Below, piece by piece: positions 1-20,962 of a DNA stretch of 21,811 nucleotides. The notes beneath the pieces were generated by a model. The model made no database searches, was not told the origin of the DNA, and was given only the letters and a program-made list of their open reading frames with translations. Each line of letters opens with the position of its first letter. The stretch's first letter is position 1. Source of the DNA: a virus. The stretch is from IMG/VR virus record IMGVR_UViG_3300035670_001364, positions 1-21,811 of that record; one strand, written 5' to 3'. The translations under genes were made by a program, and so were the position numbers.

Positions 1-470
1 TGTCATACGACTCAACAAAGAAAACATACACCGTTAGAAACTACAATGCATTGTCTAGGTTTGACGCACAGAAACACTTAAACCCAAATCCTTTATTCTC
101 TACAAAGGCAACTCATAGAAGTAATGCAAGGCAAATTTTGTATCCAAGAGCTTTTGAAACATTCACCTCATTCGGCGATACAACTAACGCAAGAATTGTT
201 CAAGAACGAGTATCTTTCTTGAAGATGGCTGAATCTAATAAGATGACTATTAGAGTTGCTGGTCGACTGGATTACACGGTTGGTAAAGTTGTTAAAGTTA
301 CAATGACGAAATTACAACCATTTAGATCTTCAGAGTCCCAAGCAGATATGATTGATAAGATTAATTCTGGTAAATATCTAATCTCCGCTATAAATCACGT
401 TATAACTATACAAGGTCATGAGTGCGCTATTGAACTCATTAAAGATTCTTCTATTAAGAAATTAGGTTAA
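1..470 (+). CDS. 27: Baseplate hub protein, T4 gp27-like (C-terminal fragment)
   Basis: The reading frame is open from base 3, with no stop before the TAA at 468-470, so the gene starts upstream of the window and about 156 residues are visible. The TTG at 51 is an internal Leu codon, not the start. The tail end resembles the T4 gp27 C-terminus: a helix (RVSFLKMAESNKMTIRV) followed by strands ending in a 'GKYLISAINHVI' segment, parallel to T4 'TEFYVDEVIHELS'. In T4, gp27 forms a trimeric torus in the baseplate centre that holds the gp5 spike and connects to the tail tube. The assignment rests on this motif resemblance, from memory of the T4 sequence, and on the gp5 homologue starting 5 bases after the stop. 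Another gpD/gp44-type hub protein would look similar, but the role would be the same. Confidence 0.75.
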   Translation, partial: SYDSTKKTYTVRNYNALSRFDAQKHLNPNPLFSTKATHRSNARQILYPRAFETFTSFGDTTNARIVQERVSFLKMAESNKMTIRVAGRLDYTVGKVVKVTMTKLQPFRSSESQADMIDKINSGKYLISAINHVITIQGHECAIELIKDSSIKKLG

Positions 471-475
471 ACATT

Positions 476-3400
476 ATGAACATTTATTTTGGTATCGTTG
501 AGAACAGAAGCGATCCACTAGAGTTGGGTCGTTGTCAAGTCCGTGTTGTCGGTTTACACACTCACGATAAAAACTTACTACCAACTTCAGATTTACCTTG
601 GTGTGCTTCGGTTCAACCAACAACTTCAGCTGCCATGAACGGTATTGGTTTCAGCTACGTTGGACCAGTTGAAGGAACTTCCGTTGTTGTTACATACCTC
701 GACGATACTATGCAACAAGGTCTTATCCTTGGTGCCGTTGGTGGTATTGCCACAGAACCAGTTCCTATTGACTTTGATGATTCTGGACCAATTCTTGAAT
801 CAGCGAGCACCTCAGTTTCTCTAAGAAGTATAAAAGGACCAACTTCTGGTAATAAGATCACGTTTTATGACCCAAATAACAGAGGAAGAACTGACCTAAC
901 CAAAGACCTAACAGCTAACATGCGTGTTAACGGATATGGTATTACTGAAGGTACAACTATTGTTTCTATTGATAGTGGTACACAAATTACAATCACAACA
1001 GAAGTACGTGATTTTGGCGAGAACATAATAGATTTTTATCCACCACTCGCTAACGCGAAATACGTGGCGGAATCAAAAACTATCGTCAGTGCGACTGCCG
1101 TTGCAACTAAAGCAGATACTGTTAAAAATACACCAACTAATAATTCAATTCCAACTATCCCACCACCTTCGTTTAAAAATACTCAGGCGAAGGCATCGCA
1201 AGGTATTAAAGCACTTATCGCTGCTTGTGATAAAGTTGGTTTGACTACTAAAGAACAAAAATGCGCGTTGTTGGGTATCGCTGGTGGAGAGACTGGATGG
1301 ATTCCACAGAAAGAATCTTACAATTATACTCCAGCTCGTTTAAAGCAGATTTTTTCTTTTGCAACCGACGATGATGTTGAGAAATACTCTAACGCTGTTA
1401 AGAAGGGTATGACTAGAGAAGAATTCTTCTCTTGGTGTTATGGACCAACAAAACGTGGTAAGGGTTTCTTTGGACATAAGACGGATGCCGATGGCGGTAA
1501 ATATTATGGTCGTGGGTTCATCCAGTTGACTGGTTATTCTAACTATAAGAAGTATAACGACCTGGCTAATGCTATGGGGTTGGATATTGATATTGTTAAC
1601 AATCCAGATTCTCTGGATTATGATATTAATATTTCTGCTACGGTGGCAGCTTTGTACCTTAAAGACAGAGTTTCATCTAAACTAAACCCTAATGAAAACC
1701 CAGGGTGGTTTTATGCTGCGAAAAAAGCAGTTGGTGTGAACTCACCAGATATCGCCGCGAGAAAACTATCTTACTATGAATACTTTTATGGTGTGGAGAC
1801 GAGTGGTGGCGTTGTTAAAGACGCTGGTGCAAAAGCACCAGACACTCCGTTCGAAGAAGCAGACGGAAAACCAGGACCATCTAAGAAATCAATTACAACT
1901 GGTTCTTTCAGTATAGGTTTCCGTGACCCAAATAACAAGTATCCTTTAAGAGATTACCTCGGCGAACCAGACGTTAATCGTCTAGCACGCGGTATTATAG
2001 ATGGCACTGTTGTTGGTATTAAAGACTCTAAACGCGTTGTTGGTGTTCCAACAGCAGCTGGAACAAGCTGGGACCAACCACTGGCAGCGTATGGGGCAAA
2101 ATACCCGTACAATAAAGTTTTTGAGACTGAGTCTGGACATATTCAAGAGTTTGACGATACACCTGGTCAAGAACGTCTACACACTTATCACCGTTCTGGT
2201 ACGTTTACCGAAGTTGATGCTAATGGCACTCAGGTAAATTATATCGTTGGTGATAACTTTATTTTAATGGAGCAAAATGGATGTATTCGTGTCGCGGGTG
2301 AGTGTAACATAACAGTTGATGGTCAAACAAACATTTTAGCTCGTTCAGATGCCAATATTGAAGTTGCGCAGAACGCGAAGTTGGTTGTTGGTAATAACTT
2401 AGAGGTTGGTGTTGCTAATGACTTTTCTTTAGCAGTTGGCGGGGATTTTAAAGTTAAAGTTGGTGGAGAATGTTCTCTAGACTCAAACTCATTAAACCTA
2501 AAATCTCAAAGCGTCTTAAACGCGCAAGCTGTTTCTGGATTATCGTTAAAAGGTAGTTCTACAAATATTGAATCCACTGGAGAATTTAGCATTCTTGCAG
2601 GTGGTGTAATGAGTATGGACTATCAAGAAGGTCAATTCGGTAATGGTGCGGCTGGAGCTAATGATGTTGAAAATGTTGATTTAACTGCCCCTGCTGCTGG
2701 TATTCCTTTAAACGCTTCAATCCCATACAGTATTGCGCCACCGAGAGAATTTGAAACCAAAAACGTCATCGAAACCCCTGACGATTGGGATACTCCAGAA
2801 GGAAGAGCCCAACAGAATAAGATTTCAAAAGAAGAAGGTGTGGAGAAACCTGCATCGGCAACTGCAGATGAAGGAACGGTTTCTATCACTGGTGGTTCAA
2901 GTACAACAGTGAATGTTGATAAATCTCTAATTCTTACAACAAAGGATTTCACTGATGATTATCACCTCTCTAAGAACTTTACCCTTGGTATGATGATATC
3001 TGGTGGTGTTGGCGGTAAACATAAACTAACACCGCAAATGTTGAAACCTAACAAGAATGCAACTGAGCGTCTATACACTGTACAAGAAATTGTCGGTAAC
3101 TTGGCGGACACTGCAAACAATGTTCTAGAGAAGATTGTAGATATTATGCCAGGAGGTTTGGCTGGGTATAATAGACAATGGGTTATAACTTCTGGATACA
3201 GGTTAAAGGGTGTTGTTTCCAACGAATCTCCGACGTCAGATCACTGTAAGGGTCATTGTGTTGATATTCAAATTAAAAATCCAGACACTTACAATAAAAC
3301 GTATGAATTAATCCAACAGATTGAAAGATTGATTCCATACGACCAATTAATTTTAGAGTATCGTTTCCCAGATAAATGTTGGATACATATTGCGTATAGA

Positions 3401-3520
3401 AAAGACAACAACCGAGCGCAAGCGTTTACTATGGTTAACGACTCAACATATAAGCGCAATGCTGCTGGTCTTCCTTACGGGTTCTATCTACTAAACCAGA
3501 TTCCACCGAAAGGTAAGTGA
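476..3520 (+). CDS. 5: Baseplate central spike, gp5-like, with GH19-like and M15 peptidase domains
   Basis: A 1014-aa spike protein, against 575 aa for T4 gp5. Domains in order: an N-terminal OB-fold (about 1-95, starting MNIYFGIVENRSDP); a small beta module (about 125-180); a Thr/Pro-rich linker (about 200-235); a GH19 chitinase/lysozyme-like domain (about 240-430) with Glu272 in AGGETGW, Glu280 in KESYNY and the family-typical GGKYYGRGFIQLTG at 340-353; the gp5/VgrG-type neck and triple-stranded beta-helix repeats (about 545-745); and a C-terminal M15-type zinc peptidase domain (about 825-1010). The last has SGYR, then SDHCKGHCVD with His923 and Asp930, Glu961, and WIH with His971 as the third ligand. 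By family knowledge the spike pierces the outer membrane and opens peptidoglycan during injection. T4 uses a GH24 lysozyme here; this protein has a GH19-like one plus a likely peptidase. ATG 476 follows the gp27 stop by 5 bases. Confidence 0.88.
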   Translation: MNIYFGIVENRSDPLELGRCQVRVVGLHTHDKNLLPTSDLPWCASVQPTTSAAMNGIGFSYVGPVEGTSVVVTYLDDTMQQGLILGAVGGIATEPVPIDFDDSGPILESASTSVSLRSIKGPTSGNKITFYDPNNRGRTDLTKDLTANMRVNGYGITEGTTIVSIDSGTQITITTEVRDFGENIIDFYPPLANAKYVAESKTIVSATAVATKADTVKNTPTNNSIPTIPPPSFKNTQAKASQGIKALIAACDKVGLTTKEQKCALLGIAGGETGWIPQKESYNYTPARLKQIFSFATDDDVEKYSNAVKKGMTREEFFSWCYGPTKRGKGFFGHKTDADGGKYYGRGFIQLTGYSNYKKYNDLANAMGLDIDIVNNPDSLDYDINISATVAALYLKDRVSSKLNPNENPGWFYAAKKAVGVNSPDIAARKLSYYEYFYGVETSGGVVKDAGAKAPDTPFEEADGKPGPSKKSITTGSFSIGFRDPNNKYPLRDYLGEPDVNRLARGIIDGTVVGIKDSKRVVGVPTAAGTSWDQPLAAYGAKYPYNKVFETESGHIQEFDDTPGQERLHTYHRSGTFTEVDANGTQVNYIVGDNFILMEQNGCIRVAGECNITVDGQTNILARSDANIEVAQNAKLVVGNNLEVGVANDFSLAVGGDFKVKVGGECSLDSNSLNLKSQSVLNAQAVSGLSLKGSSTNIESTGEFSILAGGVMSMDYQEGQFGNGAAGANDVENVDLTAPAAGIPLNASIPYSIAPPREFETKNVIETPDDWDTPEGRAQQNKISKEEGVEKPASATADEGTVSITGGSSTTVNVDKSLILTTKDFTDDYHLSKNFTLGMMISGGVGGKHKLTPQMLKPNKNATERLYTVQEIVGNLADTANNVLEKIVDIMPGGLAGYNRQWVITSGYRLKGVVSNESPTSDHCKGHCVDIQIKNPDTYNKTYELIQQIERLIPYDQLILEYRFPDKCWIHIAYRKDNNRAQAFTMVNDSTYKRNAAGLPYGFYLLNQIPPKGK

Positions 3521-3828
3521 TGGCAGGTATTGCTAAACTTGGAGATCTTTCGAGGGGGCATGACGGGTTTCCGCCAAGCCCCATGGTGACAACACCGATT
3601 AAAAAGACATATTATAATGGTAAGTTAATCGGGGCTTTATCCCCGCTATGTCAATATGAAGCGCACTCCAGTGGTTCCACCACGCACCAACAAACGGAAA
3701 GATACCCAATAACAGGTTCTTCTAAGACATACGTTGAGGGGTTTGCTATTATACGAAAAGGCGATCAATTGAATGATGGAGATTATGTTGAAGTGGAAGA
3801 ATCTGCAACCAACTCTTACATAGAATAA
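3520..3828 (+). CDS. PAAR-domain spike tip protein (T4 gp5.4-like)
   Basis: A 102-aa PAAR-family protein that caps and sharpens the gp5 beta-helix spike. Its ATG overlaps the TGA of the spike gene (TGATG), and AAAGG at 3509-3513 lies six bases upstream, so I start it here rather than at the in-frame GTG at 3517. It opens MAGIAKLGD, has Pro-rich turns (FPPSPM), and ends with a 'GS..Y.EGF.I.RKGD' repeat typical of the family. His14, Cys44, His49 and His56 provide the three-His-one-Cys set known to bind a metal ion at the tip of phage PAAR proteins. Position directly after the spike gene and likely coupled translation fit one-to-one assembly with the gp5 trimer tip. Confidence 0.9.
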   Translation: MAGIAKLGDLSRGHDGFPPSPMVTTPIKKTYYNGKLIGALSPLCQYEAHSSGSTTHQQTERYPITGSSKTYVEGFAIIRKGDQLNDGDYVEVEESATNSYIE

Positions 3829-3841
3829 CCTAAATAATCAT

Positions 3842-4234
3842 ATGGCACGCAATACAAGACTTTTTTCAGATTTAGACTTGAATTTTAGACCTCACCCAAT
3901 TACGGGTGATGTGACTATTAAAAAAGATGATGAAGCTATTAAGCAAGCTCTTAAAAATCTGATCCAACTAAGAAACTATGAAAAACCTTTTCATAGTGAA
4001 ATTGGCTCACCGATCCGTCAGGCTCTTTTTGAACCAATAACACCTATGACTTCTTTGATTGTTAGAAGAACGATCATTGATTTGGTTTCCAACTTTGAAC
4101 AAAGAGTTAAACTAATCGACGTTGATGTAATCGCTTCGCCAGAAAATAATTCTTTATATGTTAACATCGTCTTCAGAATTGTTAACACCGAACGTCCGCT
4201 ACAACTAGAATTCATGCTAGAAAGAACTCGATAA
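3842..4234 (+). CDS. 25: Baseplate wedge protein, gp25/GPW family
   Basis: A 130-aa protein, close to T4 gp25 (132 aa). The sequence follows the family pattern: an N-terminal 'FSDLDLNF..HPITGDV' segment, a helix with repeated charged residues (DDEAIKQALKNLI), the conserved 'GSPIRQALFEP' core, and a C-terminal beta sheet ending in 'RPLQLEFMLERTR'. gp25 joins the wedge to the hub and primes sheath assembly; TssE of type VI secretion is its relative. There is no clear Shine-Dalgarno sequence in the 13-base gap before the ATG. The stop TAA abuts the ATG of the gp6-like gene with no bases between them, suggesting coupled translation of the two wedge partners, which bind each other in T4. Confidence 0.9.
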   Translation: MARNTRLFSDLDLNFRPHPITGDVTIKKDDEAIKQALKNLIQLRNYEKPFHSEIGSPIRQALFEPITPMTSLIVRRTIIDLVSNFEQRVKLIDVDVIASPENNSLYVNIVFRIVNTERPLQLEFMLERTR

Positions 4235-6067
4235 ATGGCTAATAATAAACGTATTAAGGTTAATGACCTAGACTTTGATGCAATTAAAAGTAATCTTAAG
4301 AATTTCCTTGCAGGTCAAGAACAATTCCAAGACTACGATTTTGAGGGTTCATCGTTCTCTATTCTTTTGGATGTGTTAGCATATAATACTCACTACAATG
4401 CATTATACACCAACTTAGCTGTAAACGAAATGTTCTTAGATTCAGCGTCTAAGCGTTCTTCTGTAGTTTCTTTGGCGAAGATGTTAGGGTATCTACCAAA
4501 CTCAGCTCAGTGTGCAAAAGCTGTTGTGAACGCGACGATTACAGCCCCAACATACAACCCAGACGTTGTAACATTACCTGCGGGTCAACCGTTCTTAACA
4601 TCTATTGATGGTATTTCTTACACTTTCTATAATGTATCTGACGTTACGACAGTTTCAGCTGGTGGCTCTTATACATTCAACAACGTTGACTTAATTGAAG
4701 GTATTCCTTTGGTGTTTAACTACAACATCCAAAACGGAATGAGATATATTATCCCTAATAAAAACGTAGACCTATCAACTCTTAAAATTAAGATGAGAGA
4801 GTCGCCATCCGATGACTCATATGTTGTATATCAAACAACAGAATCTATTACATCTATTGACGGTACAAGTAAAGTTTATTTCGTCAAAGAACTTGACAGT
4901 GGATTGTATGAAATTTATTTCGGCGACGGAGTTGTTGGTTATAAACCAGTAGACGGCAACTACATGTCGATTGAGTATTATGTTTCTAGTTTGGATGCAC
5001 CAAACGGTTCAAATACATTCTCGTATGCTGGTACTGCGCTTCTTGGTTCTGGTTTAACTGTTGTTGCTCAATCTCCAGCTTATGGTGGTTCTGAACCTGA
5101 AGATATTAACTCTATTAAGTTCAATGCTCCAAAACTTTACGCTGCTCAGAACAGGGCAGTTACAACTGAAGACTATAAATCTCTAATCTATAAAAACTAC
5201 CCTCAAGCGGATTCAATCGTTGTTTGGGGTGGTGAAGATAACGACCCTCCAATTTATGGTAAGACTTTTATTTGCATCAAACCAAAAGATGCATCTAAAC
5301 TAACTCAAGCGCAAAAAGATTATATCCAATATAACATTATTGCTCCGAAGTCTATCGTTTCTATTACACCAGAATTCGTAGACCCAGAATACTTCAAAGT
5401 TCAAATCTCTACTACTGCGTACTACAACGCTAAAGTTTCTGAGAAGACTCCAGCTCAGTTAGAGACAATTATTCGTGATTCTATTTACACTTACGACGAC
5501 GAGAACCTTAAAAAGTTCGATGGTATTATGCGTTACTCTCAATTGGTTCGTTTGATTGACGAGGCAGACCAAGCTATCGTTAACAACACGACTAAAATTC
5601 TAGTTCGTCGTGAATTTGCCCCACGTTATAACATCAGTTCAGAATATAAATTAACGATGATCAACCCGATTTACCGTTCAGAGATTCCTTCTGAGTCTGT
5701 AATGACGACTGGTTTCTATATTCCAAACACTGCCAATATTCACTACATTGATGACGATGGTGTTGGTAATCTACGTTTATTCTACCTTGACGCGAACCAA
5801 AATAAAGTTATTGTCAACCCAACAATCGGTTCTGTTATATACGATACTGGTACAGTTATTGTTAGAAACTTGATTATTTCTTCTATGGCTGATGCTTCTT
5901 TCGAATTTATTCTTAGACCAGAAGCGTATGACGTTGTTCCAGCGTATAACCAAATTGTACAAGTTGATAGAGAACACTTAACTGTAAACGTTGTTAACGA
6001 TATGACTGCGGCTGGTTCTAACCAAGCTGGTAAAAATTACGTCTTCACTTCTATCAGACAGATTTAA
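4235..6067 (+). CDS. 6: Baseplate wedge protein, T4 gp6-like (baseplate J family)
   Basis: A 610-aa protein, near the length of T4 gp6 (660 aa). The N-terminus is diagnostic: 'YDFEGSSFSILLDVLAYNTHYN' (about 34-55), then 'NEMFLDSASKRSSV' and 'AKMLGYLPNSA', the signature found across gp6/J-type wedge proteins. The centre carries a 'IYFGDGVVG' motif (about 227-235), common in baseplate J-like proteins, and the 'ENLKKFDGIMRYSQLVRLID' segment. In T4, gp6 dimers form the iris-like ring that connects wedges and changes shape on contraction. It starts immediately after the gp25-like stop and ends two bases before the gp7-like start, so gp25, gp6 and gp7 appear to be one translational unit. Confidence 0.9.
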   Translation: MANNKRIKVNDLDFDAIKSNLKNFLAGQEQFQDYDFEGSSFSILLDVLAYNTHYNALYTNLAVNEMFLDSASKRSSVVSLAKMLGYLPNSAQCAKAVVNATITAPTYNPDVVTLPAGQPFLTSIDGISYTFYNVSDVTTVSAGGSYTFNNVDLIEGIPLVFNYNIQNGMRYIIPNKNVDLSTLKIKMRESPSDDSYVVYQTTESITSIDGTSKVYFVKELDSGLYEIYFGDGVVGYKPVDGNYMSIEYYVSSLDAPNGSNTFSYAGTALLGSGLTVVAQSPAYGGSEPEDINSIKFNAPKLYAAQNRAVTTEDYKSLIYKNYPQADSIVVWGGEDNDPPIYGKTFICIKPKDASKLTQAQKDYIQYNIIAPKSIVSITPEFVDPEYFKVQISTTAYYNAKVSEKTPAQLETIIRDSIYTYDDENLKKFDGIMRYSQLVRLIDEADQAIVNNTTKILVRREFAPRYNISSEYKLTMINPIYRSEIPSESVMTTGFYIPNTANIHYIDDDGVGNLRLFYLDANQNKVIVNPTIGSVIYDTGTVIVRNLIISSMADASFEFILRPEAYDVVPAYNQIVQVDREHLTVNVVNDMTAAGSNQAGKNYVFTSIRQI

Positions 6068-8791: not shown

Positions 8792-11700
8792 ATGGCTAAT
8801 ACAGCATTAGTTAAAACAATTCTTCATAAGTCTCTCGCCGAGGGTGTTTATAGAGACCTAGTCACAAGAACTGGGTCGTATTATTACTTTCTAGGAAAAA
8901 CCCTCGGTTGGACTGATGAAGATAATCCACCATATCCAATTGACAGCTTAAAATATGAACACGATGTTCGTAATGAAATCATCACTCTGAAAGAAATCAG
9001 ACCTTCAGATATCGCTTTCGTTATTCCACGTAGAGAGTGGGTTGATAACGAATTGTATGATATGTATGACGATCAATATTGCGACGAGGTCATCGGCGTT
9101 GATATTATTTCTGGTGGTACAGGATATATTGATATTTACGATATCTCTTTATCCATTGAAGGTGGTGGCGGCTCAGGTGCAACTGCAGTTGTAACTATTG
9201 TTGAAGATGGGGAGATTGCAGGTATTACTCTCACTTCTAGGGGTTATGGATATAATGCAGAACCAACTATCGTAATTACTTCTTCTTCTGGTTCAGGTGC
9301 GGTGCTAAAACCAAAAATTGGTATTTCTTCAACTGGAAAACAGAAAATTGAAGAGGCTGCGTTTTATGTGGTTACAGACGAATATAATGTTTATAAGTGC
9401 CTAGACAACAATAATAATTCTAGATCTACTGTAAAACCAACAGGTACGGCTTTAGACCCATTTGAAACTAGCGACGGATATATCTGGAAGTTCATGTACA
9501 ACATTCCAATTAACCTTCGCAACAAATTCTACACTGATGAATATATCCCTGTTGTATCAGCGCTGACTAATCACTTCTATTCAAACGGTACAATTGATAA
9601 CATCTTTATCGCGAACCGTGGTAAGAACTATACATCAGCCACTGTTTCCGTTTTAGGCGATGGTTACAGAGAAGCTGATCCAATTTACGTTACTGGCGCA
9701 GCTGTTGTACAACAAGGTACTGGTTACCAGACTCCATCTATTATTTTTAGCGACCCTGTAACTGGGGCTTCTCCATTTACAGTAGTTAGCCCATTAACCC
9801 TTGGCCAGAAAGTTTTTAACTCAGATAAAGACTTCTATGAGGTCATGACGCCTGGTACAACTACAACATATGAACCAAACCATCGATTTGGTACAGTGTT
9901 GAATGGAACAGCAGCTTTAAGATATATCGGTTCAACTTTAAAGGGTTCTGTAACCACAGTTAACCCTAAAAATATTACTAAAATAACTGTAACAACTGGC
10001 GGTGCTGGTTATTTAACACCGCCAACAGTTACAATTTTAGACGGTACTGGCACTGGCGCGCAGGCAACCGCAGTCATTGGAACGTTTAACCTGTCTGATG
10101 TTATTGTAACTAACGGTGGTTCCGGATATCTAACTCCCCCAGTATTAACTGTATATGGTGGTGGTGGAACTGGCGCGCAGGTTCAAGCTATATTAACTGG
10201 CGGCACCATCACAGACGTTATGATGATTAACCAAGGTTCCGGATACACATCAGCGCCAACTATCCTCGTTGAAGGTTCTGGTACTGGTGCAGTTCTAACT
10301 CCAGTTATGTCTGGTTCTCCAGTCACTGAGATTATTGTAACTAATGGTGGAGCTGGTTATACAAGCCCAGTTGTAACTATAACTGGTGGTAGTGGCGCTG
10401 CGGCTTCTGCAACTGCAACTGTTGAAACTGGGGTTATTAGCGACATCTCGTTGAGAGGTTCTATCAGAGATGTGATTATTGTTAACTCTGGTTCTGGTTA
10501 TTTGACACCACCTGATGTTAATATTACAGGCGATGGTACTTTTGCTGTTGTTAAATCTAAAATTTATCAAGATAAAGTAATTTCAACATACGTTATTAAC
10601 GCTGGTTATGATTACGTTCTGCCACCAACAGTGACATTTGGTACACAATATTCTTCATTTAGCGAAGTATATACTAACGACCAATTGTCTAATGGTTCTA
10701 ATTTATACACAGTAGTTCAAGCTGGTGTGACTGGTTCTTCTGAACCGACGCACAGTACTGGTACAGTTGTCACTTCTCCAGCTTGGAACGCAAACACAAC
10801 GGTTGTAGCAAATCAAACTGTCTATGTATCAAACAGAATGTATAAGTGTTTGAACGGTGGTTTGACTGGTTCTTCTGAACCGACGCACAGTACTGGTACA
10901 GTAATGAACGGTGCTGTTAATTTACAGTACATTGGTATTCCAGCATCTCTTAGAAGAGATGGAGAAACTGCAACTGGTTATGCCGTTCTAAGATACGGTG
11001 CAGGGTATTCAGAAACACCAAAGGCAACATTTATTGATGCCACTGGTAAAGATGCCGAAATTGGTTTTTACACTGCTAAATCCGAAGCAAAAATTACTCC
11101 AATCGTTGCGAATGGTCAGCTAGTTTATATCGTGGTTGATGATCCAGGTGTTGGATATACTAAAGCTGAATTGACAGTTTCAGGCGACGGTGTTGGTGCT
11201 TCTTTGCAAGCTGACCTTTCTCTTGGCGCGATTTCTTCTCAGCAAGCGAATAATGAAATTTTAACACCAGAAGGTACAATTGACGCCATCGCTATTATTT
11301 CTGGCGGTTACTCGTATGGTGTTGCGAACATTTCAATCTATGGCGATGGTGAAGGCGCCGAGGCAGTTGCTGTCATTGACCCAGACACTAAAGCGATTAA
11401 GAAAGTTAATATCGTAAATAGAGGTTCTGGATATACATGGGCTGACGTAATTATTACTGGCAACGGTAATGGCGCGTCGCTAAGAGCTATTGTTTCTCCA
11501 TTCGGCGGGCACGGTAAAAATGCCCCTGAAGAATTATTTGCAACTTCTTTAATGTTGTATTCAAATATTTCTACCGACTTAAACCAAGGCGTGGTTGTTT
11601 CTAACGACTATCGTCAGGTTGGTATCATTAAAAACCCACGTGTGTTTAATGGATTGGAAGTTTTCCAAGGAACTGTTGGTTCTTGCTGCTATATCGTTCA

Positions 11701-12190
11701 AGCACCTATTGACACCACAAAGTTCAAACGCGACGATGAAGTTTACGTTGAGCGAACAAATAATCCAAGTATTGTTTGGGAACCAACTCAATACGTTTAT
11801 CTTGGCGACTTCTTATATTATGAAGATAGAATTTACACGGTGGTTGTTTCTGGTTTAACAGGTTCTGTACCACCAACTCACATGACTGGTACTGAGAAAA
11901 ACGGATTCTGTTCTCTAACATATGTTGGATCAACAAAATCTAAGAAAAGATATCGTATAGTTTCTATCACTCCATCTACTGCGCTTGTGCAATCGTTGGA
12001 CAACGATATTCCAGGAAACAGTGACGTGTTTATTAATACTCAATATGTAACATATAATTTCACTGCAACAACTATCGGTTACCCGACAGTGGATAAATAT
12101 TCTGGACAGATGATGTATATTGACAATAAACAAGGGTTTACACCTTCTGGCGACGAAACAATTACTCTTAGAACGATTATTAATTTCTAA
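8792..12190 (+). CDS. 8: Baseplate wedge protein, T4 gp8-like, expanded by beta repeats
   Basis: An 1132-aa protein built on a gp8 frame; T4 gp8 is 334 aa. Matches to T4 gp8 appear in order but far apart: 'PPYPIDS' and 'FVIPRREW' in the first 90 residues (T4: PPYPTDS, AVIPRRDW), a 'VYKCLD' strand and 'DGYIWKFMYNIP' at about 190-240 (T4: VYRCLD, DGYVWEYLFEIP), and 'SGQMMYIDN...ETITLRTIINF' at the C-terminus (T4: SGEMIYMEN...EEINILFTF). Between them are many glycine-rich 'GSGYT' beta repeats (densest at about 395-616) and four 'G.TGSSEPTH..GT....' modules. In T4, a gp8 dimer supports the wedge periphery beside gp7 and gp10. The repeats probably form an added peripheral beta structure; that is inference. 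No frameshift or stop interrupts the gene. Confidence 0.82.
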   Translation: MANTALVKTILHKSLAEGVYRDLVTRTGSYYYFLGKTLGWTDEDNPPYPIDSLKYEHDVRNEIITLKEIRPSDIAFVIPRREWVDNELYDMYDDQYCDEVIGVDIISGGTGYIDIYDISLSIEGGGGSGATAVVTIVEDGEIAGITLTSRGYGYNAEPTIVITSSSGSGAVLKPKIGISSTGKQKIEEAAFYVVTDEYNVYKCLDNNNNSRSTVKPTGTALDPFETSDGYIWKFMYNIPINLRNKFYTDEYIPVVSALTNHFYSNGTIDNIFIANRGKNYTSATVSVLGDGYREADPIYVTGAAVVQQGTGYQTPSIIFSDPVTGASPFTVVSPLTLGQKVFNSDKDFYEVMTPGTTTTYEPNHRFGTVLNGTAALRYIGSTLKGSVTTVNPKNITKITVTTGGAGYLTPPTVTILDGTGTGAQATAVIGTFNLSDVIVTNGGSGYLTPPVLTVYGGGGTGAQVQAILTGGTITDVMMINQGSGYTSAPTILVEGSGTGAVLTPVMSGSPVTEIIVTNGGAGYTSPVVTITGGSGAAASATATVETGVISDISLRGSIRDVIIVNSGSGYLTPPDVNITGDGTFAVVKSKIYQDKVISTYVINAGYDYVLPPTVTFGTQYSSFSEVYTNDQLSNGSNLYTVVQAGVTGSSEPTHSTGTVVTSPAWNANTTVVANQTVYVSNRMYKCLNGGLTGSSEPTHSTGTVMNGAVNLQYIGIPASLRRDGETATGYAVLRYGAGYSETPKATFIDATGKDAEIGFYTAKSEAKITPIVANGQLVYIVVDDPGVGYTKAELTVSGDGVGASLQADLSLGAISSQQANNEILTPEGTIDAIAIISGGYSYGVANISIYGDGEGAEAVAVIDPDTKAIKKVNIVNRGSGYTWADVIITGNGNGASLRAIVSPFGGHGKNAPEELFATSLMLYSNISTDLNQGVVVSNDYRQVGIIKNPRVFNGLEVFQGTVGSCCYIVQAPIDTTKFKRDDEVYVERTNNPSIVWEPTQYVYLGDFLYYEDRIYTVVVSGLTGSVPPTHMTGTEKNGFCSLTYVGSTKSKKRYRIVSITPSTALVQSLDNDIPGNSDVFINTQYVTYNFTATTIGYPTVDKYSGQMMYIDNKQGFTPSGDETITLRTIINF
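9974..10638 (+). repeat. Array of glycine-rich 'GSGYT' beta repeats in the gp8-like gene
   Basis: About six units of roughly 35-40 codons each carry the pattern 'I..I.V.N.G.GYL.PP.V.I..G.GTGA.A.A.V..G'. The turns read GGAGYLTPP, GGSGYLTPP, QGSGYTSAP, GGAGYTSP, SGSGYLTPP and then a degenerate GYDYVLPP. DNA identity between units is modest, so the duplications are old or codon use has drifted. Further single units lie before and after the array (about 9110-9300, 9600-9760 and 10980-11480). Confidence 0.85.
10728..10767 (+). repeat. 40-bp direct repeat, copy 1
   Basis: This stretch is identical base for base to 10863-10902. It begins TGACTGGTTC and ends TGGTACAGT, and encodes the TGSSEPTHSTGTV module. 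The offset is 135 bases, exactly 45 codons, so the duplication keeps the frame. Confidence 0.9.
10863..10902 (+). repeat. 40-bp direct repeat, copy 2
   Basis: Second identical copy of 10728-10767. Two diverged protein-level relatives of the same module lie at about 9850-9950 (EPNHRFGTVLNG) and 11850-11930 (TGSVPPTHMTGTEKNG). Confidence 0.9.
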
Positions 12191-12233: not shown

Positions 12234-15200
12234 ATGGCACTTGACTTTAATACCGAACCGTACTTTGACGACTATTCCGCGGAGAAAGATTTCTACCGAA
12301 TTCTTTTCCGCCCGAGCTATGCGGTTCAAGCCCGTGAATTAACGCAAATTCAGACTATCCTGCAAAATCAGGTTACAAGATTTGGCGATCACGTATTCAA
12401 AAATGGTTCACAAGTAATTCCTGGTTCTGTTAATGCAGATAATCAGGTACACTTCATTAAACTTGAACAGTTTACTGGTACTATTGACGTTACAACTTAT
12501 ATTGAAACATTCAAGAATAAGATTGTAACTGGCGAAACTTCTGGTGTTAAGATGCGCGTGTTGGATACTACTGCGCAGGCTGATATCATTTCAGAGAATT
12601 TCGACGTTCCTACCCTTTACTGTAAAGTTGAGGGTACAGCTTCTGATAATACGACTAACCGTCTATTACCTGGCGAAAACATTATCGCATATGAAGAAGA
12701 TAACCAGATTTCAACAAACTTTATTTTAACTGAAGATCAACTCGGTGATATTACTGCAGTTGTTCGTATTCTTGGTGATGCTGGCGAGACTGGCACAACT
12801 TATCAAGGCGATTCTTCTTCTGACGTTTTAGGTTATGCTTATAGCGTTGAAGTGAAAGCTGGTATTTATTACATTGATGGTATTTTCGTTAGAAACGATG
12901 ACCTTAAAATGTACGCAGGTCGTTTTACCAACACTCCTTCATGCCGTGTTGGTTTTAAAGTTTCTGAAGAAACAGTTGCCCCAGAAGATGACGACTCTAT
13001 CCTAGACAACGCGACTGGTTCTTACAACTTCGCAGCCCCAGGTGCCCACCGTTGGCAAATCAAATTATCTCTTGTCAAACTTCCATTAGTTGCAACAGAC
13101 GCCATTCGTTTCGTTGAGCTTCTTCGCGTTGTTGATGGTCGCATCCAGCATAAGATTGATAAATCTTCATATGCTGAACTAGAAAAAACTCTAGCGCGTA
13201 GAACATATGACGAGTCTGGTAACTACGAAGTAAATAAGTTCAAACTATCTGTTCGTGAGCACTTAAACGATGGTACTAATTTTGGCGTGTATCAAGAACT
13301 TATCGGTGCACCACAAGACGGTATTACTTATGGTAACGACGACAACTTTGTTTTAGTCGTCGATCCAGGTAAAGCCTACATTCAAGGTTACGAAATTGAA
13401 TCTACTACTTCGCAGTTTGTAACTTTAGATAAAGCCCGTGAAATTAATGGTGAAGAAAACAACCACGTTGCGCGACTAGACGACAGTCCTATTGGATTGA
13501 GCGTTGGTAATTGGGTTAAAGTTAAAAACCTATTCCAAACTCCAGATATTACTAACTTTGAAAAGGTATATCTTGTAAAGACTCTTTCTACTGCAGGTAA
13601 TGCACCTGTTGCCTCTAATATCATCGGTACAGCTCGCGTTAAGTCTATTCAATTACATTCAGCTGATTATACTGCTGGTGTAAACACAGACTACAAACTT
13701 GGTCTGTTTGATATTAAGATGTACAGCGGTTATTCTTTTGAAGGTGATGTTAAGAGTATTACTGGTATTGGTGCAACTAGCACTAACCCATTTACTTGCG
13801 ATGCGTCTCCAATACTAAACCCGCTGATCGGTTCTGCAACATCTAGCACTGCATCAACAACAGTAACTGGTGTTGGTACTAACTTCCAGTCTTCTTTAAA
13901 GGCTGGTGATGTTTTATACTTGAACAATACATACGTTGGTCAAGTATCTTCAGTAACTAACAACTTAACTCTAGTTTTAACTGCCAACGCTGCAGCTTCT
14001 GTTACTGGTGGTACTGTTGGTCAATTTACTGCACCGCTACAAGACCCATCATACGAAACCCTATTGTTCCCAATCGGTTATACTACTGTTAAAACATTAC
14101 GTGGCCAAGACCAACTTGGTGGTGATACTGTTAAGTCTTCTTCTATCGTTGTTCGTCGTAAGTTCCCTAACTCTTCAACTGCGATTAATAAAGTTTCTTT
14201 TGAAATTACAACAACTAATGAAACTTTCTTATCTGACTCTGATCTATCAAACTTCTTGTTGATTGATAACGCGACTCACCTCCCTGTAAATATTACAACT
14301 GCTAACATTACTTTTGACAACGACGCTCTTAGAAAGCGTGTTGACTTTGCTGGTGTTAACAATGGTAGCTTCTATCTTGTTGCATCTGTACAACAACAAA
14401 ATAGCGCAGCGCAAGAAAAGACAAAGGTTCTAAAAGACACTTGGGTTGAAACGATTGTTGGTAAGAAATTAGTTTCAGCTTCTACAGTTGAACTTAGAAA
14501 AGCAGACGCTCTTCGTTTAAAGAGTGTTCGTATGACTCCTGGAAATTACACAGCATACGACACCAATAACTCTATTGATATTACTGAGCGTTATACTTTA
14601 GATAACGGTCAAAGAGCTACACATTATACAAACGCTAAACTTATTCTGAAGCCAGGATATCAAGCACCTTCTGGCGCTCTAAGCGTTGAGTACGATTGGT
14701 TTGAAGTTACTGCAGCGTTTGGTAATTATTTCTCTGTAGATTCATACGCTAGTGTTCCATATAAAGACATTCCATCGTTCACAATTACTGATCCAGCTAC
14801 TGGTAAGAAACGCGAGACATGTTTGTCTGATGTGTTAGACTTCCGTCCAATTTTAGATGGCGAAAATACATTCACTCCTGAAGTTCCTAAAATTGGTTCT
14901 GATGCACAAGCACCAGTGGCGTATTACCTTGGTCGCCGTGATAAGATTGTTCTAGACTCTATTGGTCGCTTCAATGTTATCAAAGGTGTTCCAGCGGCAA
15001 TTCCACAAGAACCAGAAGACCCTAAAGAGGGTATGGTTCTAGCTTCTCTAATTATTCCACCATACACTAAAACTGTAAGCAACGTTGTTATTTCTCAAAG
15101 AGATAACCGTCGTTACACAATGCGTGATATTGGTAAATTAGACCGTCGTATCGCTAACCTTGAGTATTACGTTACTCTTAACTTGTTAGAAAAAGATACT

Positions 15201-18200
15201 GCAACTATGCAAATCAGAGACACATCTACTGGTTTGGATAAGTTTAAGAACGGTTTCATCGTTGACCAATTCACTGGTCACGGTATCGGCGATGTTAAGA
15301 ACGTAGATTATCGCGTTGCTGTTGATTCTTCAACACGAGTTCTTCGCCCAATGCACTTTACAACTGCCCTAGAAATTGTTGAAGATCTAGCTTCTGGTGG
15401 CGACCGTGCGTTTAAGGGATATAAAAAGACTGGCGACTTAATCACTCTACCTTTCACTGAATCTGACTTTATTTTTAATAACAACGCAACACGCGCTATG
15501 GACATTCAAGCCATGGCCATGGGTGCACTAAAAGGTCAAATCAACCTATTCCCAGAAGGCGACAACTGGAAATCAGTTGACCGTCGACCAGACTTAGTTG
15601 CTATTGACGATAACAACTATGATGCTATTCAATTCTTGGCAGCTGAAGCTGGTGTAACTGGTACTAAGTGGAACGAATGGCAGACTAACTGGACATCTGT
15701 AACTTCTTCTACAAACAAGAGCGAGTCAAGAGTTTGGGACGGCAACATCTTAGTTACTGGTTACGAAACTACAATTACCAATTACAGCGGTTATGATTAC
15801 AGAAGCGGTATTAACACTTCTCTATCTTCTACTGTAAACGCACAAGACTACGGCGATCGCGTGGTGGATATGTCTTATATCCCTTACATGCGCGCAAGAC
15901 CTGTTACATTCTATGCACAAAACCTAAAAGCTAAGACACAATTCTGGCCATTCTTCGATAACATTGATGTTAAGAATTATGTTCAACCTGCAGACAGCTT
16001 CATCGTAGAGCGTACAAGTAACACTCTAATTGACTTTAACTTCAACAATATCATTGGTGGTATTCTTGCGGATGATCCAAGAAGAGCATACAAGGGTAAG
16101 ATTGAACCATCGTTCTCTGTTGGCGATGTTGTAACTAACCCCTTACACACTGCAGTTAGCGTCCAGTCTATTACTAACTTAACTGGTACTGGTTACCAAT
16201 TCACTCTAGTGGTCGCAGATACTTCTAACATTGCAGTTGGTCACCACGTTATGTTCTATAACATGGACAACCACAATGCGTATAACGTTAAAAACCTAGA
16301 CGATTTACAAGATAACCAAAACATTCCAGCAAGTATCGGTATCTCTAATACTGCAGCGATGTCTAAAGAACTTAACCTTAAGAAGTTTAAAGTTATCGCG
16401 ATCTCTGGTCAACAATTAACATTAGCTAATATTGACGGTTCTGCCATTGATGCGTTCAGTTCTTATAGCACTGGTTCTTACACTCAAAGTAAGACTGGTA
16501 TGTTGTACCGTCTACGTGCTTCTGGTGTTGTTGTGTCTGGTGGAGAAATTATTTCTTCTGACTCAATTGGACCAATTCAGCAAGAAATTAAAGTAGTTAA
16601 CATCAAGAACGGTTTTGGTGTTGGTGATATGTTACAAGGTACTGTTAACATCGGCGGCACAACTGCGCTTAACGTTGTAGACGTTATCTCTATTAACGGT
16701 AACTCTTCAGCCTCTATTGCTTCTACAATGAAGAAGCCTGGTGATGATGTTATTACTGACGCTGATGGCGTTGCAGTTGGTGTATTCTATCTTCCAGAAA
16801 CAGACGAGCTATCTTTCCGTACTGGCGAGCGTGTATTTAAGTTGACCGATAACCAATCTAATAGCAATTCTTTCTGGGATTCTATTGGTTCTACAACTTA
16901 CTATGCGCAAGGTATTTCTCTAAGTAAAGAACGTACTATTGTTTCTACAAGAAGCGCAGTATTTACTCAGGCTGATACATACGAAGACACTCAGTCTCTA
17001 CCACCAACTCGCAGAACAACTACAAGTTCTAGAATTATTTACCAATACCGTTATGACCCTCTTGCTCAAACGTTTACTGTTTCTTCAGCAGGTGGTGTGT
17101 TTGTAACATCTCTAGATTTATATTTCTCTAAGGTTGGCGTAAGACCAATTTCTGTTGAATTAAGAAATACTGATAACGGTGTTCCTTCTTCTAAGATTAT
17201 TCCTTTCTCTGAAGTTACGCTGAACCCATCAGAAATTAATGTTTCTACTAACAGCTTAACAGCGACAACGTTTAACTTTAAGTCTCCAATCTATCTACAA
17301 GAAGGTGAGACATATGCGTTCGTTGTTAAGTGCGACGAACCAGGAAGCCAAGTTTATGTTTCAGAAATGGGACAAGTTGATATGGTTACTGGTAACACTA
17401 TCGCTGGCCAGCCATTAACTGGTTCTCTGTATGCTTCTCAGAACGCAAAAGAGTGGGAAATTCACGCTCTTCTAGATATCAAATTCAATCTTAAGAAAGC
17501 TAAGTTCCAAACTAATTCTCAAGCGGAAGTTTTACTAAAAGCTGTTCCTCCACTAGACGTTACACTGACTAATAACCCGTTTGAGATCACTCCATGGACT
17601 AACCTAGTTCGTGTATATTTCCCGAACCACGGTTTCTTGGCGAATGAATTAGTTTCTATTAGTGAAGTTGCCGATGGTTACTACGGTACAGCTAAAGGTT
17701 ACGTTGGTATTCCTGCAGCTCTATTAAATAGAACTCATACTGTAAGCGCTTCAGGGTTAGAAAGAGATTCTTTTGTAATTGATTTAACTGTAACTGATTC
17801 TGGCGGTAACTACTTACTGCAAGGTGCTTCTACAAGTACAACTTCTAACACTATCGGTACTGGTGCCAAGACTTTCACAGTAGGTACTGGTCTTGGTTAT
17901 CTTGCTGGCGATATGGTTACTGTAGAATATTCTTCTAGCATCTATATGACTGGTTCAGTCACAAGTTACAGCGGTACATCTCTTGTATTGAACATCACTA
18001 CAACCGTTGGTTCTGGTACATATGCTTCTTGGAAAGTTAAACCAGAATACATTAAAGGTGAATACGGTGGAACTACTGTTCGTTGCTCTAGAAGCATTAA
18101 GATGGACTCAATGTATTTGAAGACTTCCGATCTATCTTTCCAAGAAACAAAGATTGATTATTATATTCAAACTGAAGGTGAAGACAAAGTATTCTCAGAG

Positions 18201-19394
18201 TATCTTCCAGTTGTTGCTAACTCAAATACACTGTTTAAAGCTAGACAGCATATTTGCTCTTATGACAACCAAACTGTAATCTCCGAGTCTCCTCTGCAGA
18301 AAAAATCTTCTGTGTTGGTTAAAGCAATTCTTACTTCTTCTAACGAAAACGTATCTCCTGCAATTGACCTTCAAAAGATTTCTGCTTATTCTGTAACTAA
18401 TAGAATTGATAACGACACTGCATCAACTATTAACGTTGCAGCTATCGACACTAGAACTCTGTTAACATACGGTGACCTAGTAACTACTGATATTGAGAAC
18501 TCTGCTCCCGCTGGTACTATAACTACAACAACTGCAAGCGCCACTGTAACTGGCGTTGGTACTTTGTTTAGTACACAAATCGTGGCAGGTAATACTTTAC
18601 ACAACTCTGCTGGTACACTGATTGGTACTGTACAATCTGTAAACGGAAGCAATACATCTCTTACTTTAACTGGAAATGCAGCAGTTGCAGTTACTGGCGG
18701 AACTTACAAAGTTCGTTCTTCTCCAACTTTATACTTCGACACTGCAACATATAACGGTGAAACTCTTGGCGTTATCCGCACTAATATTGATACTGCGGAT
18801 AACTTACTAGGTCAAGCCAACGTTGGTAAGAATATAACAATCTCTAACGCTCTAACAGGTGTTGATGGTAGCTATGTTGTCAAGTTTGTTGATGTTAGCA
18901 GCGATAGCACCACATATGCGGGTAACACTGAACTTGATGTTATTCGTGTTTATGTCACCCCAGCGTTCGGCGCAACTGGTAACATTAGCATGCTAACAGA
19001 TACTGATTTCAAGATCACTATGCAAGATAAATATGTAGATGATTTTGCTCCAATCGGTTCTCATAATGCAGCTAACTATATTACAAGAACTCTTGCTCTT
19101 GCAACTGCCGCTGACCAACTGAAGGTTATTTTCGACGGTTCTATCGTTAACCACTCTGATGTTAAAGTTTATTACAGAACTTGGACTGGCGACGTAGATC
19201 TAAGAAAACTACCATATCGCGATACTGGTTTTGTTAATACAACTTTTGACGCAGAGAACGTATTCACTGAACGTACTATTGATATGAGTGGTATGACTGC
19301 ATACACTAACATTCAAATCAAGATTGTTATGAAATCTTCTTCTGCGACTTCTGTTCCTATGATCAAGAACTTACGAATTCTTGCACTATCATGA
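12234..19394 (+). CDS. Giant virion structural protein with DUF4815 N-terminus
   Basis: A 2386-aa protein, the largest here. Its N-terminus (about 5-65) holds 'FRPSYAVQARELTQIQTILQ' and 'RFGDHVFKNGSQV.PG', the signature I recognise as DUF4815, found in large structural proteins of cyanophage-type T4-like phages. A 'YTMRDIGKLDRRIANLEYYV' segment (about 960-980) follows. Around 1604 comes 'RYDPLAQTF', followed by a beta-sandwich-like region (about 1610-1760). Three small beta modules interrupt the chain: two related 'TVTGVGT.F...' modules (about 533-597 and 2093-2159) and an 'IGTGAKTFTVG' module (about 1864-1933). There is no transmembrane segment. The role is probably peripheral baseplate or fibre attachment, inferred from its place after gp8 and before the fibre genes. 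It has no clear T4 counterpart, although T4 has gp9-gp12 in this position. The stop overlaps the next start (ATGA). Confidence 0.75.
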   Translation: MALDFNTEPYFDDYSAEKDFYRILFRPSYAVQARELTQIQTILQNQVTRFGDHVFKNGSQVIPGSVNADNQVHFIKLEQFTGTIDVTTYIETFKNKIVTGETSGVKMRVLDTTAQADIISENFDVPTLYCKVEGTASDNTTNRLLPGENIIAYEEDNQISTNFILTEDQLGDITAVVRILGDAGETGTTYQGDSSSDVLGYAYSVEVKAGIYYIDGIFVRNDDLKMYAGRFTNTPSCRVGFKVSEETVAPEDDDSILDNATGSYNFAAPGAHRWQIKLSLVKLPLVATDAIRFVELLRVVDGRIQHKIDKSSYAELEKTLARRTYDESGNYEVNKFKLSVREHLNDGTNFGVYQELIGAPQDGITYGNDDNFVLVVDPGKAYIQGYEIESTTSQFVTLDKAREINGEENNHVARLDDSPIGLSVGNWVKVKNLFQTPDITNFEKVYLVKTLSTAGNAPVASNIIGTARVKSIQLHSADYTAGVNTDYKLGLFDIKMYSGYSFEGDVKSITGIGATSTNPFTCDASPILNPLIGSATSSTASTTVTGVGTNFQSSLKAGDVLYLNNTYVGQVSSVTNNLTLVLTANAAASVTGGTVGQFTAPLQDPSYETLLFPIGYTTVKTLRGQDQLGGDTVKSSSIVVRRKFPNSSTAINKVSFEITTTNETFLSDSDLSNFLLIDNATHLPVNITTANITFDNDALRKRVDFAGVNNGSFYLVASVQQQNSAAQEKTKVLKDTWVETIVGKKLVSASTVELRKADALRLKSVRMTPGNYTAYDTNNSIDITERYTLDNGQRATHYTNAKLILKPGYQAPSGALSVEYDWFEVTAAFGNYFSVDSYASVPYKDIPSFTITDPATGKKRETCLSDVLDFRPILDGENTFTPEVPKIGSDAQAPVAYYLGRRDKIVLDSIGRFNVIKGVPAAIPQEPEDPKEGMVLASLIIPPYTKTVSNVVISQRDNRRYTMRDIGKLDRRIANLEYYVTLNLLEKDTATMQIRDTSTGLDKFKNGFIVDQFTGHGIGDVKNVDYRVAVDSSTRVLRPMHFTTALEIVEDLASGGDRAFKGYKKTGDLITLPFTESDFIFNNNATRAMDIQAMAMGALKGQINLFPEGDNWKSVDRRPDLVAIDDNNYDAIQFLAAEAGVTGTKWNEWQTNWTSVTSSTNKSESRVWDGNILVTGYETTITNYSGYDYRSGINTSLSSTVNAQDYGDRVVDMSYIPYMRARPVTFYAQNLKAKTQFWPFFDNIDVKNYVQPADSFIVERTSNTLIDFNFNNIIGGILADDPRRAYKGKIEPSFSVGDVVTNPLHTAVSVQSITNLTGTGYQFTLVVADTSNIAVGHHVMFYNMDNHNAYNVKNLDDLQDNQNIPASIGISNTAAMSKELNLKKFKVIAISGQQLTLANIDGSAIDAFSSYSTGSYTQSKTGMLYRLRASGVVVSGGEIISSDSIGPIQQEIKVVNIKNGFGVGDMLQGTVNIGGTTALNVVDVISINGNSSASIASTMKKPGDDVITDADGVAVGVFYLPETDELSFRTGERVFKLTDNQSNSNSFWDSIGSTTYYAQGISLSKERTIVSTRSAVFTQADTYEDTQSLPPTRRTTTSSRIIYQYRYDPLAQTFTVSSAGGVFVTSLDLYFSKVGVRPISVELRNTDNGVPSSKIIPFSEVTLNPSEINVSTNSLTATTFNFKSPIYLQEGETYAFVVKCDEPGSQVYVSEMGQVDMVTGNTIAGQPLTGSLYASQNAKEWEIHALLDIKFNLKKAKFQTNSQAEVLLKAVPPLDVTLTNNPFEITPWTNLVRVYFPNHGFLANELVSISEVADGYYGTAKGYVGIPAALLNRTHTVSASGLERDSFVIDLTVTDSGGNYLLQGASTSTTSNTIGTGAKTFTVGTGLGYLAGDMVTVEYSSSIYMTGSVTSYSGTSLVLNITTTVGSGTYASWKVKPEYIKGEYGGTTVRCSRSIKMDSMYLKTSDLSFQETKIDYYIQTEGEDKVFSEYLPVVANSNTLFKARQHICSYDNQTVISESPLQKKSSVLVKAILTSSNENVSPAIDLQKISAYSVTNRIDNDTASTINVAAIDTRTLLTYGDLVTTDIENSAPAGTITTTTASATVTGVGTLFSTQIVAGNTLHNSAGTLIGTVQSVNGSNTSLTLTGNAAVAVTGGTYKVRSSPTLYFDTATYNGETLGVIRTNIDTADNLLGQANVGKNITISNALTGVDGSYVVKFVDVSSDSTTYAGNTELDVIRVYVTPAFGATGNISMLTDTDFKITMQDKYVDDFAPIGSHNAANYITRTLALATAADQLKVIFDGSIVNHSDVKVYYRTWTGDVDLRKLPYRDTGFVNTTFDAENVFTERTIDMSGMTAYTNIQIKIVMKSSSATSVPMIKNLRILALS
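13830..14024 (+). repeat. 'TVTGVGT' beta module, copy 1
   Basis: This encodes about 65 residues with 'TASTTVTGVGTNF', 'LKAGDVLYL', 'VGQVSSVTNN' and 'LTANAAASVTGGT'. It pairs with a second copy at 18510-18710 of the same gene, more than 1,500 residues away. Confidence 0.75.
17823..18033 (+). repeat. 'IGTGAKTFTVG' beta module
   Basis: This encodes about 70 residues with 'IGTGAKTFTVGTGLGYLAGD' and 'SYSGTSLVLNITTTVGSGTY', ending in 'ASWKV'. The pattern is a recurring exchangeable module in phage tail fibre and baseplate proteins. Confidence 0.65.
18510..18712 (+). repeat. 'TVTGVGT' beta module, copy 2
   Basis: This encodes 'TASATVTGVGTLF', 'IVAGNTLHN', 'IGTVQSVNGSN' and 'LTGNAAVAVTGGT', the same layout as 13830-14024. 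The DNA has diverged, so the copies are not recent. Confidence 0.75.
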
Positions 19395-19645: not shown

Positions 19646-20962
19646 ATGGCAGCTATTAACTTACGTCAGGACAAAGAGCGTCCATTAACAATCGCTGAGG
19701 TTGATTTTAACTTTTCAGCGTTAAACGACGAAGTAGGTCAAAAGTTGGACAATGCAGCGTTCAATGCAGTTAACATCTTAGAATTGTTAGATGGAAACGC
19801 TGGCGCAGGTTCAACGCTAGATACTGACAAAATTCACGGGTGGTATCCTTCTCAAAACGCAGACGCTGATACTGTCGCTATTAGAGATGCACTTGGTAAC
19901 TTAAAAGCAACACAATTCCAAGGTTTGCATATCGGCAACGTTATTGGTGATATCACTGGTAACGGTACAGGTATTTGGACAGGTAACGCTACAAACGTTT
20001 CTGGTATCGTCCAGCTAGACCACGGTGGTACTGGTGCGAACACTGCAGCTAACGCAAGAACAAACTTGGGTTGCGGTAATATGGCAGTTCAAAATAAGAA
20101 CACCATTGATATTACTGGCGGTACTATTACTGGTATCACAGACCTGGCAGTTGCTGATGGCGGTACTGGCGCATCCAATGCGATTGGCGCTCGTTCAAAC
20201 TTGGGTTTGATTATTGGTTCAGATATTCAAGCATACAATGCAACTCTTACTGGTCTTGGCGCTACAACTGGTAACGGTTTTGTTATTAGAAAAACAGACA
20301 ACTCAGCTGTTGTGCGAAAGTTCGTCGCTGGCAACTCTCTAGACTTAACAAACGCAGACGGTACTGCTGGTGATATTACTATCGGATTGAATAGTTCACC
20401 GAGTATTGCTTCTATCACTAAAACAGGAACTGATGCTACTGGTAATCTTGGACAATCAAACAACCGTTGGGGTTACGTTTATACAAGATATATTACATTA
20501 GATTCTATTACTAAAACTGGAACTAACGCTTCTGGTGATATTGGACAATCTGATAATAGATTTGGTTCTGCTCACTTAACTAGCCTCGGCGTTGGTACTG
20601 GCGCTTCAGGTACTGCTGGTGAAATTCGCGCAACTAATAACGTAACCGCTTACTACTCCGACGACCGTTTAAAAACTCGCCTTGGTGGTTTAGAAAATGC
20701 TTTAGATAAAATTGATCAACTTGCGGGCTTCTATTATGAAGCGAATGAAACTGCGCAAGCTCTTGGTTATGATGTAAAACGAGAAGTCGGTTTATCTGCG
20801 CAGGATACTCAAAAGATTCTACCAGAAATTGTTGCCCCTGCTCCAATTGATGATAAATACTTAACGATTAGATATGAACGTTTGGCTCCACTTTTTGTTG
20901 AAGGTATTAAAGAACTTCGCCAAGAATTAAAGGCTATTAAAGCTCACATTGGAATGAAATAA
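19646..20962 (+). CDS. Tail fibre with C-terminal S74 intramolecular chaperone
   Basis: A 438-aa fibre protein. The N-terminus (LRQDKERPLTIAEVDFNFSALN, about 5-26) is an anchor type also seen in the next gene. The shaft contains 'GGTGANTAANARTNLG' and 'GGTGASNAIGARSNLG' repeats, typical of phage tail fibres, and two tandem 31-residue units 'SITKTGT.A.G..GQS.NR.G' starting at 20411 and 20504. The C-terminus is a peptidase_S74 domain: 'YYSDDRLKTRLGGLENALDKI' with Ser338 and Lys343 of the catalytic pair, 'GLSAQD' and 'YLTIRYERLAPL'. By family knowledge the domain trimerises and folds the shaft, then cuts itself off before the Ser, which would release about 101 residues. AAGG (19636-19639) lies six bases before the ATG. 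The fibre is probably baseplate-attached and binds the host surface. Confidence 0.88.
   Translation: MAAINLRQDKERPLTIAEVDFNFSALNDEVGQKLDNAAFNAVNILELLDGNAGAGSTLDTDKIHGWYPSQNADADTVAIRDALGNLKATQFQGLHIGNVIGDITGNGTGIWTGNATNVSGIVQLDHGGTGANTAANARTNLGCGNMAVQNKNTIDITGGTITGITDLAVADGGTGASNAIGARSNLGLIIGSDIQAYNATLTGLGATTGNGFVIRKTDNSAVVRKFVAGNSLDLTNADGTAGDITIGLNSSPSIASITKTGTDATGNLGQSNNRWGYVYTRYITLDSITKTGTNASGDIGQSDNRFGSAHLTSLGVGTGASGTAGEIRATNNVTAYYSDDRLKTRLGGLENALDKIDQLAGFYYEANETAQALGYDVKREVGLSAQDTQKILPEIVAPAPIDDKYLTIRYERLAPLFVEGIKELRQELKAIKAHIGMK
20411..20596 (+). repeat. Tandem 93-bp repeat in the fibre shaft
   Basis: Two 31-codon units (starting 20411 and 20504) share 'SITKTGT.A.G..GQS.NR.G'. This 'G..GQS.NRWG' unit commonly precedes S74 chaperone domains. 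The match is clear over the first 19 or so codons of each unit and weak beyond. Confidence 0.7.

Follow-up and report, generated by a model that had tools for sequence, protein, structure and literature searches.

The window (the whole stretch of DNA analysed, a 21.8 kb IMG/VR virus fragment) begins with the C-terminal end of a tail protein gene in the hub (gp27) position, followed by an intact ORF with no internal stop, a PAAR-like gene that overlaps the stop of this ORF, and the genes of the baseplate wedge proteins gp25 and gp6 (Table 1). The product of the intact ORF matched the gp5/tail lysozyme family of PHROGs (6e-86) and its full-length structural model retrieved T4 gp5 as the top Foldseek match (2e-11), while the order of the operon, hub - gp5 - PAAR - gp25 - gp6, provides the hub, gp25 and gp6 context of a T4-type gp5. 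The small PAAR-like protein further matched NF033420 (2e-7), which is below the cut-off of that model.

Table 1. Features of the spike gene and its neighbours (window coordinates; residues are those of gp5)
Feature	Coordinates	Strand	Size or residues	Basis
Tail protein, C-terminal end, hub (gp27) position	3..470	+		phrog_350 3.4e-20
T4-type gp5 central spike gene, GH19 and M15-type domains	476..3520	+	1014 aa	
N-terminal gp5 OB domain	476..760	+	1-95	Gp5_OB 1.6e-25, T4 gp5 alignment
Variable inserted beta domain	791..1090	+	106-205	median 48% identity, pLDDT about 70
GH19 lysozyme-type domain	1178..1810	+	235-445	PF00182, 8p8e profile match, fold
Putative catalytic pair codons	1289..1315	+	E272 (1289-1291), E280 (1313-1315)	alignment, invariance
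Trimerisation region and octad-repeat beta-helix	1901..2620	+	about 476-715	T4 gp5 alignment, periodicity
Linker, helix to M15 domain	2621..2941	+	716-822	relatives' lengths, low pLDDT
M15-type zinc peptidase domain	2942..3517	+	823-1014	homology, motif, fold
Putative zinc ligand and catalytic Glu codons	3242..3388	+	H923 (3242-3244), D930 (3263-3265), E961 (3356-3358), H971 (3386-3388)	
PAAR-like spike tip protein	3517..3828	+	103 aa	phrog_281 1.6e-9
Baseplate wedge gp25	3842-4234	+		PF04965, PF21379 (jointly for gp25 and gp6)
Baseplate wedge gp6	4235-6067	+		PF04965, PF21379 (jointly for gp25 and gp6)

Further downstream, the window encodes a wedge-like protein of 1132 aa (8792-12190) with many repeats resembling GGxGYxxPPxVxIxGGxGxGA, a repeat type common to several virion protein families, and a 2386-aa protein (12234-19394) that is the product of the window's largest gene and matches phrog_358, a family of unknown function. 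A 438-aa tail-fibre protein (19646-20962) follows, whose C-terminal part (about residues 320-435) is common to many tail-fibre families and resembles an intramolecular chaperone of the S74 type.

The protein sequence itself agrees with this gene context. An OB domain of the gp5 type lies at its N-terminus, and T4 gp5 residues 367-566 aligned with its trimerisation region and beta-helix, in which the periodicity of V, I and L peaks at lags 8 and 16; the Gp5_trimer_C model matched 9 of 16 relatives. Among relatives the beta-helix is mostly 114, 130 or 137 residues long, with a maximum of 154, and the differences in length are often multiples of 8 or 16. The central GH24 lysozyme of T4 was not found, its slot being occupied by a GH19 domain. 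Since the central enzyme slot varies in other gp5 proteins too, we regard the protein as a gp5 variant and not as a non-member. The product of the ORF is thus a T4-type gp5 spike, as an earlier note on this DNA, made from the sequence alone, had proposed. Between the OB and GH19 domains lies an inserted beta domain of lower conservation, for which a weak structural match was observed to a chain of the Arthrobacter phage Bridgette (8eci_1, Z 9.3). The AF2 model of the full-length monomer had a pLDDT of 60.5, too poor to guide the placement of domains, and it was dropped for this use.

The GH19 assignment, likewise anticipated by the note for the place of the T4 lysozyme, was borne out by profile and fold. 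Glyco_hydro_19 (PF00182) matched with 26.0 bits (9.6e-6), passing the curated Pfam cut-off of 25.5, and the domain was detected in all 16 relatives of set A1 at E values up to 0.01. A profile built on 39 relatives retrieved 8p8e (4.4e-9), the C-terminal domain of TseP (8xcl, 5e-7) and the SPN1S endolysin (4ok7, 1e-6), and the predicted fold matched 7r6s with a Z score of 17.3 (2.6 A, 183 aligned residues), 8p8e with 16.0, 4ok7 with 15.9 and TseP-C with 15.1. E272 and E280, the glutamates that the note had named for this domain, align with the catalytic glutamates of the GH19 endolysins (8p8e, 4ok7) and of TseP, in which the second Glu of the pair, E663, was found to be essential by experiment (PMC11893102), and both are invariant in 80 of 80 aligned relatives.

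The note had also placed an M15-type zinc peptidase domain after the beta-helix, and here the Pfam evidence fell short: Peptidase_M15_3 (PF08291) matched the whole protein with 17.4 bits (0.0049) and the domain scanned alone with 21.0 bits, both below the Pfam cut-off of 23.2, while 30 of 39 relatives matched the model at E values up to 0.1. Because Pfam alone left doubt, the assignment rests on homology, motif identity and fold. As to homology, residues 898-991 matched an endolysin family of PHROGs (7.5e-13), and tblastn from the domain reached M15 proteins of the phages ctYwJ313 (1e-8) and SCTP-2 (3e-7), both of which belong clearly to PF08291, scoring 80.5 and 68 bits. The motif SxHxxGxxxD ... 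E ... WxH is present, and S921, H923, G926, D930, E961, W969 and H971 are identical across 11 divergent M15 domains, two of which are unambiguous PF08291 members. H923, D930 and H971 are the predicted zinc ligands and E961 the predicted catalytic Glu, the positions the note had given, and all four are invariant in the 79 of 79 relatives having the region. Together with E272 and E280, this makes six named residues whose agreement with the known motifs, and invariance among homologues, are far more than chance would produce. The isolated domain was modelled with a pLDDT of 85.9, and its closest fold was the Zn DD-peptidase of Streptomyces (1lbu, Z 10.6, with 129 residues aligned at 3.2 A); the next match had a Z score of 6.4, hedgehog N-domains scored about 6, and M15 enzymes such as ChiX, LysECD7, VanXY, VanY and Ply500 about 4-5. 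Foldseek gave the M15 model an E-value of only 0.008. When the PDB was searched with the domain, by sequence and by profile, no M15 structure emerged, and the matches returned (a designed TIM barrel and ribosomal L26) were dismissed as spurious. The domain is therefore a member of the M15 superfamily that is not firmly placed in PF08291, so that the note's fused peptidase stands on grounds other than the Pfam score.

Scanning IMG/VR, we found 478 stretches that encode relatives of this gp5, and aligned the best 80 of them, nearly all of full length and about 58-81% identical. Nearly all of these best 80 keep both enzyme domains, and a gene in the hub position lies upstream of gp5 in 77 of 79 relatives. 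Where dN/dS was defined by the NG86 method (some dS values were saturated), it was 0.06-0.12 for the GH19 domain (estimable in 3 of 4 pairs), and 0.10 for the M15 domain (estimable in only 1 of 4), indicating purifying selection on both. The insert had higher values, at 0.15-0.35, as did the linker, at 0.19-0.25. A gp5 with two predicted enzyme domains is a conserved and common trait of a large aquatic T4-like group.

The position of the M15 domain, C-terminal to the beta-helix as the note had described, had been considered a structural question, since the helix normally ends at the PAAR tip. The location was confirmed, and the puzzle appears a mild one: some T6SS VgrG spikes have extended effector domains (PMC11925235) and may serve as a precedent, the PAAR gene is kept, and the linker between helix and M15 domain, of about 107 residues in the window and 103-111 in relatives, is long enough for the domain to lie beside the tip. 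This linker contains a conserved ETPxxxxTPEGR, and residues 742-809 had a pLDDT under 50 in the full-length model, a low-confidence prediction as would be expected of a flexible tether. Among the 59 loci that extend to gp25, the order hub - gp5 - PAAR - gp25 was held in 56, and the idea that the M15 domain generally replaces PAAR was rejected on this count. In many relatives one or two extra small genes, absent from the window, lie between gp5 and PAAR (for example L030:3969-5226, L025:7054-7530 and L047:6349-6792). In the contigs behind two loci, L035 (46 kb) and L041 (160 kb), neither profiles nor tblastn, the latter run with no positive control, revealed a PAAR gene, whether between gp5 and gp25 or elsewhere; at 144-146 residues, the beta-helices of these two belong to the longer end of the range. 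A fuller reading, by which a common aquatic T4-like lineage with probably diderm hosts uses a two-enzyme drill whose M15 domains cap or flank the tip and, in some members (L035, L041), have rendered PAAR dispensable, seems to us improbable.

Several other explanations of the two domains were weighed. The M15-type domain could act on the maturation of gp5 itself, or on a protein of the host surface, instead of on peptidoglycan, and T4 gp5 is indeed cleaved post-translationally between Ser351 and Ala352 (PMC3004832). Yet in the fold comparison a DD-peptidase ranks first and cell-wall M15 enzymes appear among the matches that follow, the family of the domain occurs in phage proteins annotated as endolysin or peptidase M15, and other phages carry an M15 domain on the PAAR protein, where a role in cutting gp5 is less obvious; we hold such a role to be unlikely. 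Somewhat less likely still is that the domain has no catalytic activity and serves in structure or binding, like the hedgehog N-domains of the same fold: these rank directly behind 1lbu among the fold matches and the M15 Pfam score lies under its cut-off, whereas the invariance of the zinc ligands and catalytic Glu, in 79 of 79 relatives and 11 divergent domains, argues against a silent role.

A different substrate may also be imagined for the GH19 domain, for instance a capsule or a chitin-like polymer, since chitinases belong to GH19 and the Pfam model is named for chitinase class I. In the fold comparison, however, the best matches (Z 14-17) were endolysins of phages and TseP's lysozyme domain, with the chitinases behind them at about 9-12, and the domain occupies the slot of the T4 lysozyme, leaving this the least probable of the three.

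The reading we prefer, and consider likely, is that the window encodes the gp5 of a T4-like aquatic phage with two peptidoglycan-cutting domains in each chain, which open a local hole in the wall. In T4, gp5-gp27 is pushed into the periplasm, where the helix dissociates before the peptidoglycan is opened by the lysozyme domains (PMC3004832). By analogy, contraction of the sheath would push the PAAR-tipped gp5 trimer across the outer membrane. Having reached the periplasm, the GH19 domains would cut the glycan backbone via E272 and E280, and the M15 domains, with zinc on H923, D930 and H971 and E961 as the base, would act on stem peptides or cross-links. The combined cuts would make a local opening through which the tail tube could pass. 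Such a paired cut is plausible because the baseplate of phage A-1(L) has active paired domains (PMC10966104). A needle combining a glycosidase with a peptidase is what the earlier note had envisaged, and both domains and their predicted catalytic residues were recovered; we infer the activities, the bonds cut, the trimer with its six predicted wall-cutting domains, the position of the M15 domain and the order of events.

As to the host, relatives point to a Gram-negative bacterium, and the window's gp6 is closest to those of Methylophilales and Pelagibacter phages. The identity of a cyanophage was considered and is unsupported, no psbA being found in five longer contigs of relatives or in BUCT-ZZ01. 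Virion-associated lysins of Gram-negative phages have been described as typically holding a single catalytic domain, with endopeptidase domains almost exclusive to phages of Gram-positive hosts (PMC6116005). The single-domain generalisation now looks too narrow, given that the two-enzyme spike is conserved and that its relatives infect diderm hosts. The protein is furthermore a natural example of an enzyme placed past the helix tip of a phage spike, parallel to the effector domains on VgrG spikes, and supplies two candidate wall-cutting domains for biochemistry.

Compared with known systems, the window's gp5 shares with T4 gp5 its OB domain, a central glycosidase, the trimerisation region, the octad beta-helix and the operon context. 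By contrast, GH24 is the only enzyme of T4 gp5 and nothing comes after its helix, while the window's protein has GH19 in place of GH24, an additional beta domain and an M15 domain beyond the helix. The gp5 of Caulobacter phage Cr30 (YP_009098974.1) likewise has an OB domain, a lysozyme, a helix and a C-terminal M15-type domain, with a PAAR gene next to it, except that its lysozyme is of the Phage_lysozyme2 type (PF18013), without GH19. That of pf16 is arranged as OB-helix-M15 with no glycosidase called, and no enzyme domain was called in gp5 of Pelagibacter phage HTVC008M. In Methylophilales phage Melnitz (L019:2959-6002) the parts of gp5 are divided over two genes, the first for OB-VanY and the next for the helix with an M15-type domain at its C-terminus, a spike with possibly two M15-type enzymes, and in Vibrio phage 1.244.A (L022:4340-5329) and PA5oct (L099:2413-3435) an M15-type domain is found on the PAAR protein. 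A peptidase would thus appear to be placed at the needle tip in two ways, on gp5 or on the PAAR protein. Since the enzyme domains differ across the spikes and tips of isolated phages, spike and tip together constitute a modular enzyme site.

Outside T4-type spikes, gp13 of phi29, with a lysozyme domain at its N-terminal end, differs in coming from a podovirus of a Gram-positive host, in using M23 and not M15, and in not being a gp5 spike. It is similar in being a tail-tip wall-degrading protein, with an M23 D,D-endopeptidase (PMC9662197). The baseplate hub gp15 of Anabaena phage A-1(L) shares the pairing of a glycan-cutting with a peptide-cutting domain, both active (PMC10966104), but is a hub instead of a spike, with no T4-type gp5 of this kind. 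The T6SS effectors TseP and Tae17 also bring two wall-cutting activities to a gp5-like spike (PMC11893102, PMC11796386), and some VgrG spikes have functional domains of their own (PMC11925235); all these are bacterial weapons, and TseP and Tae17 are proteins separate from the spike. A survey of pelagimyophages described gp5 as strongly divergent and proposed that this may adapt it to the wall of the host (PMC7029224). Two wall-cutting activities in one tail device are therefore a known concept; in the open-access literature (subscription papers lay outside the search) we found no paper on a gp5 with GH19 and M15. This very pair is nonetheless present, un-noted, in the public genome of Synechococcus phage BUCT-ZZ01, where no PAAR match was found in the 5.8 kb stretch searched, which stops at gp5. 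The gp5 of this phage (UTS51949.1, 939 aa), annotated only as a baseplate hub subunit, is about 36% identical to that of the window and has its OB, GH19, helix and M15-type domains arranged in the same succession within a single protein.
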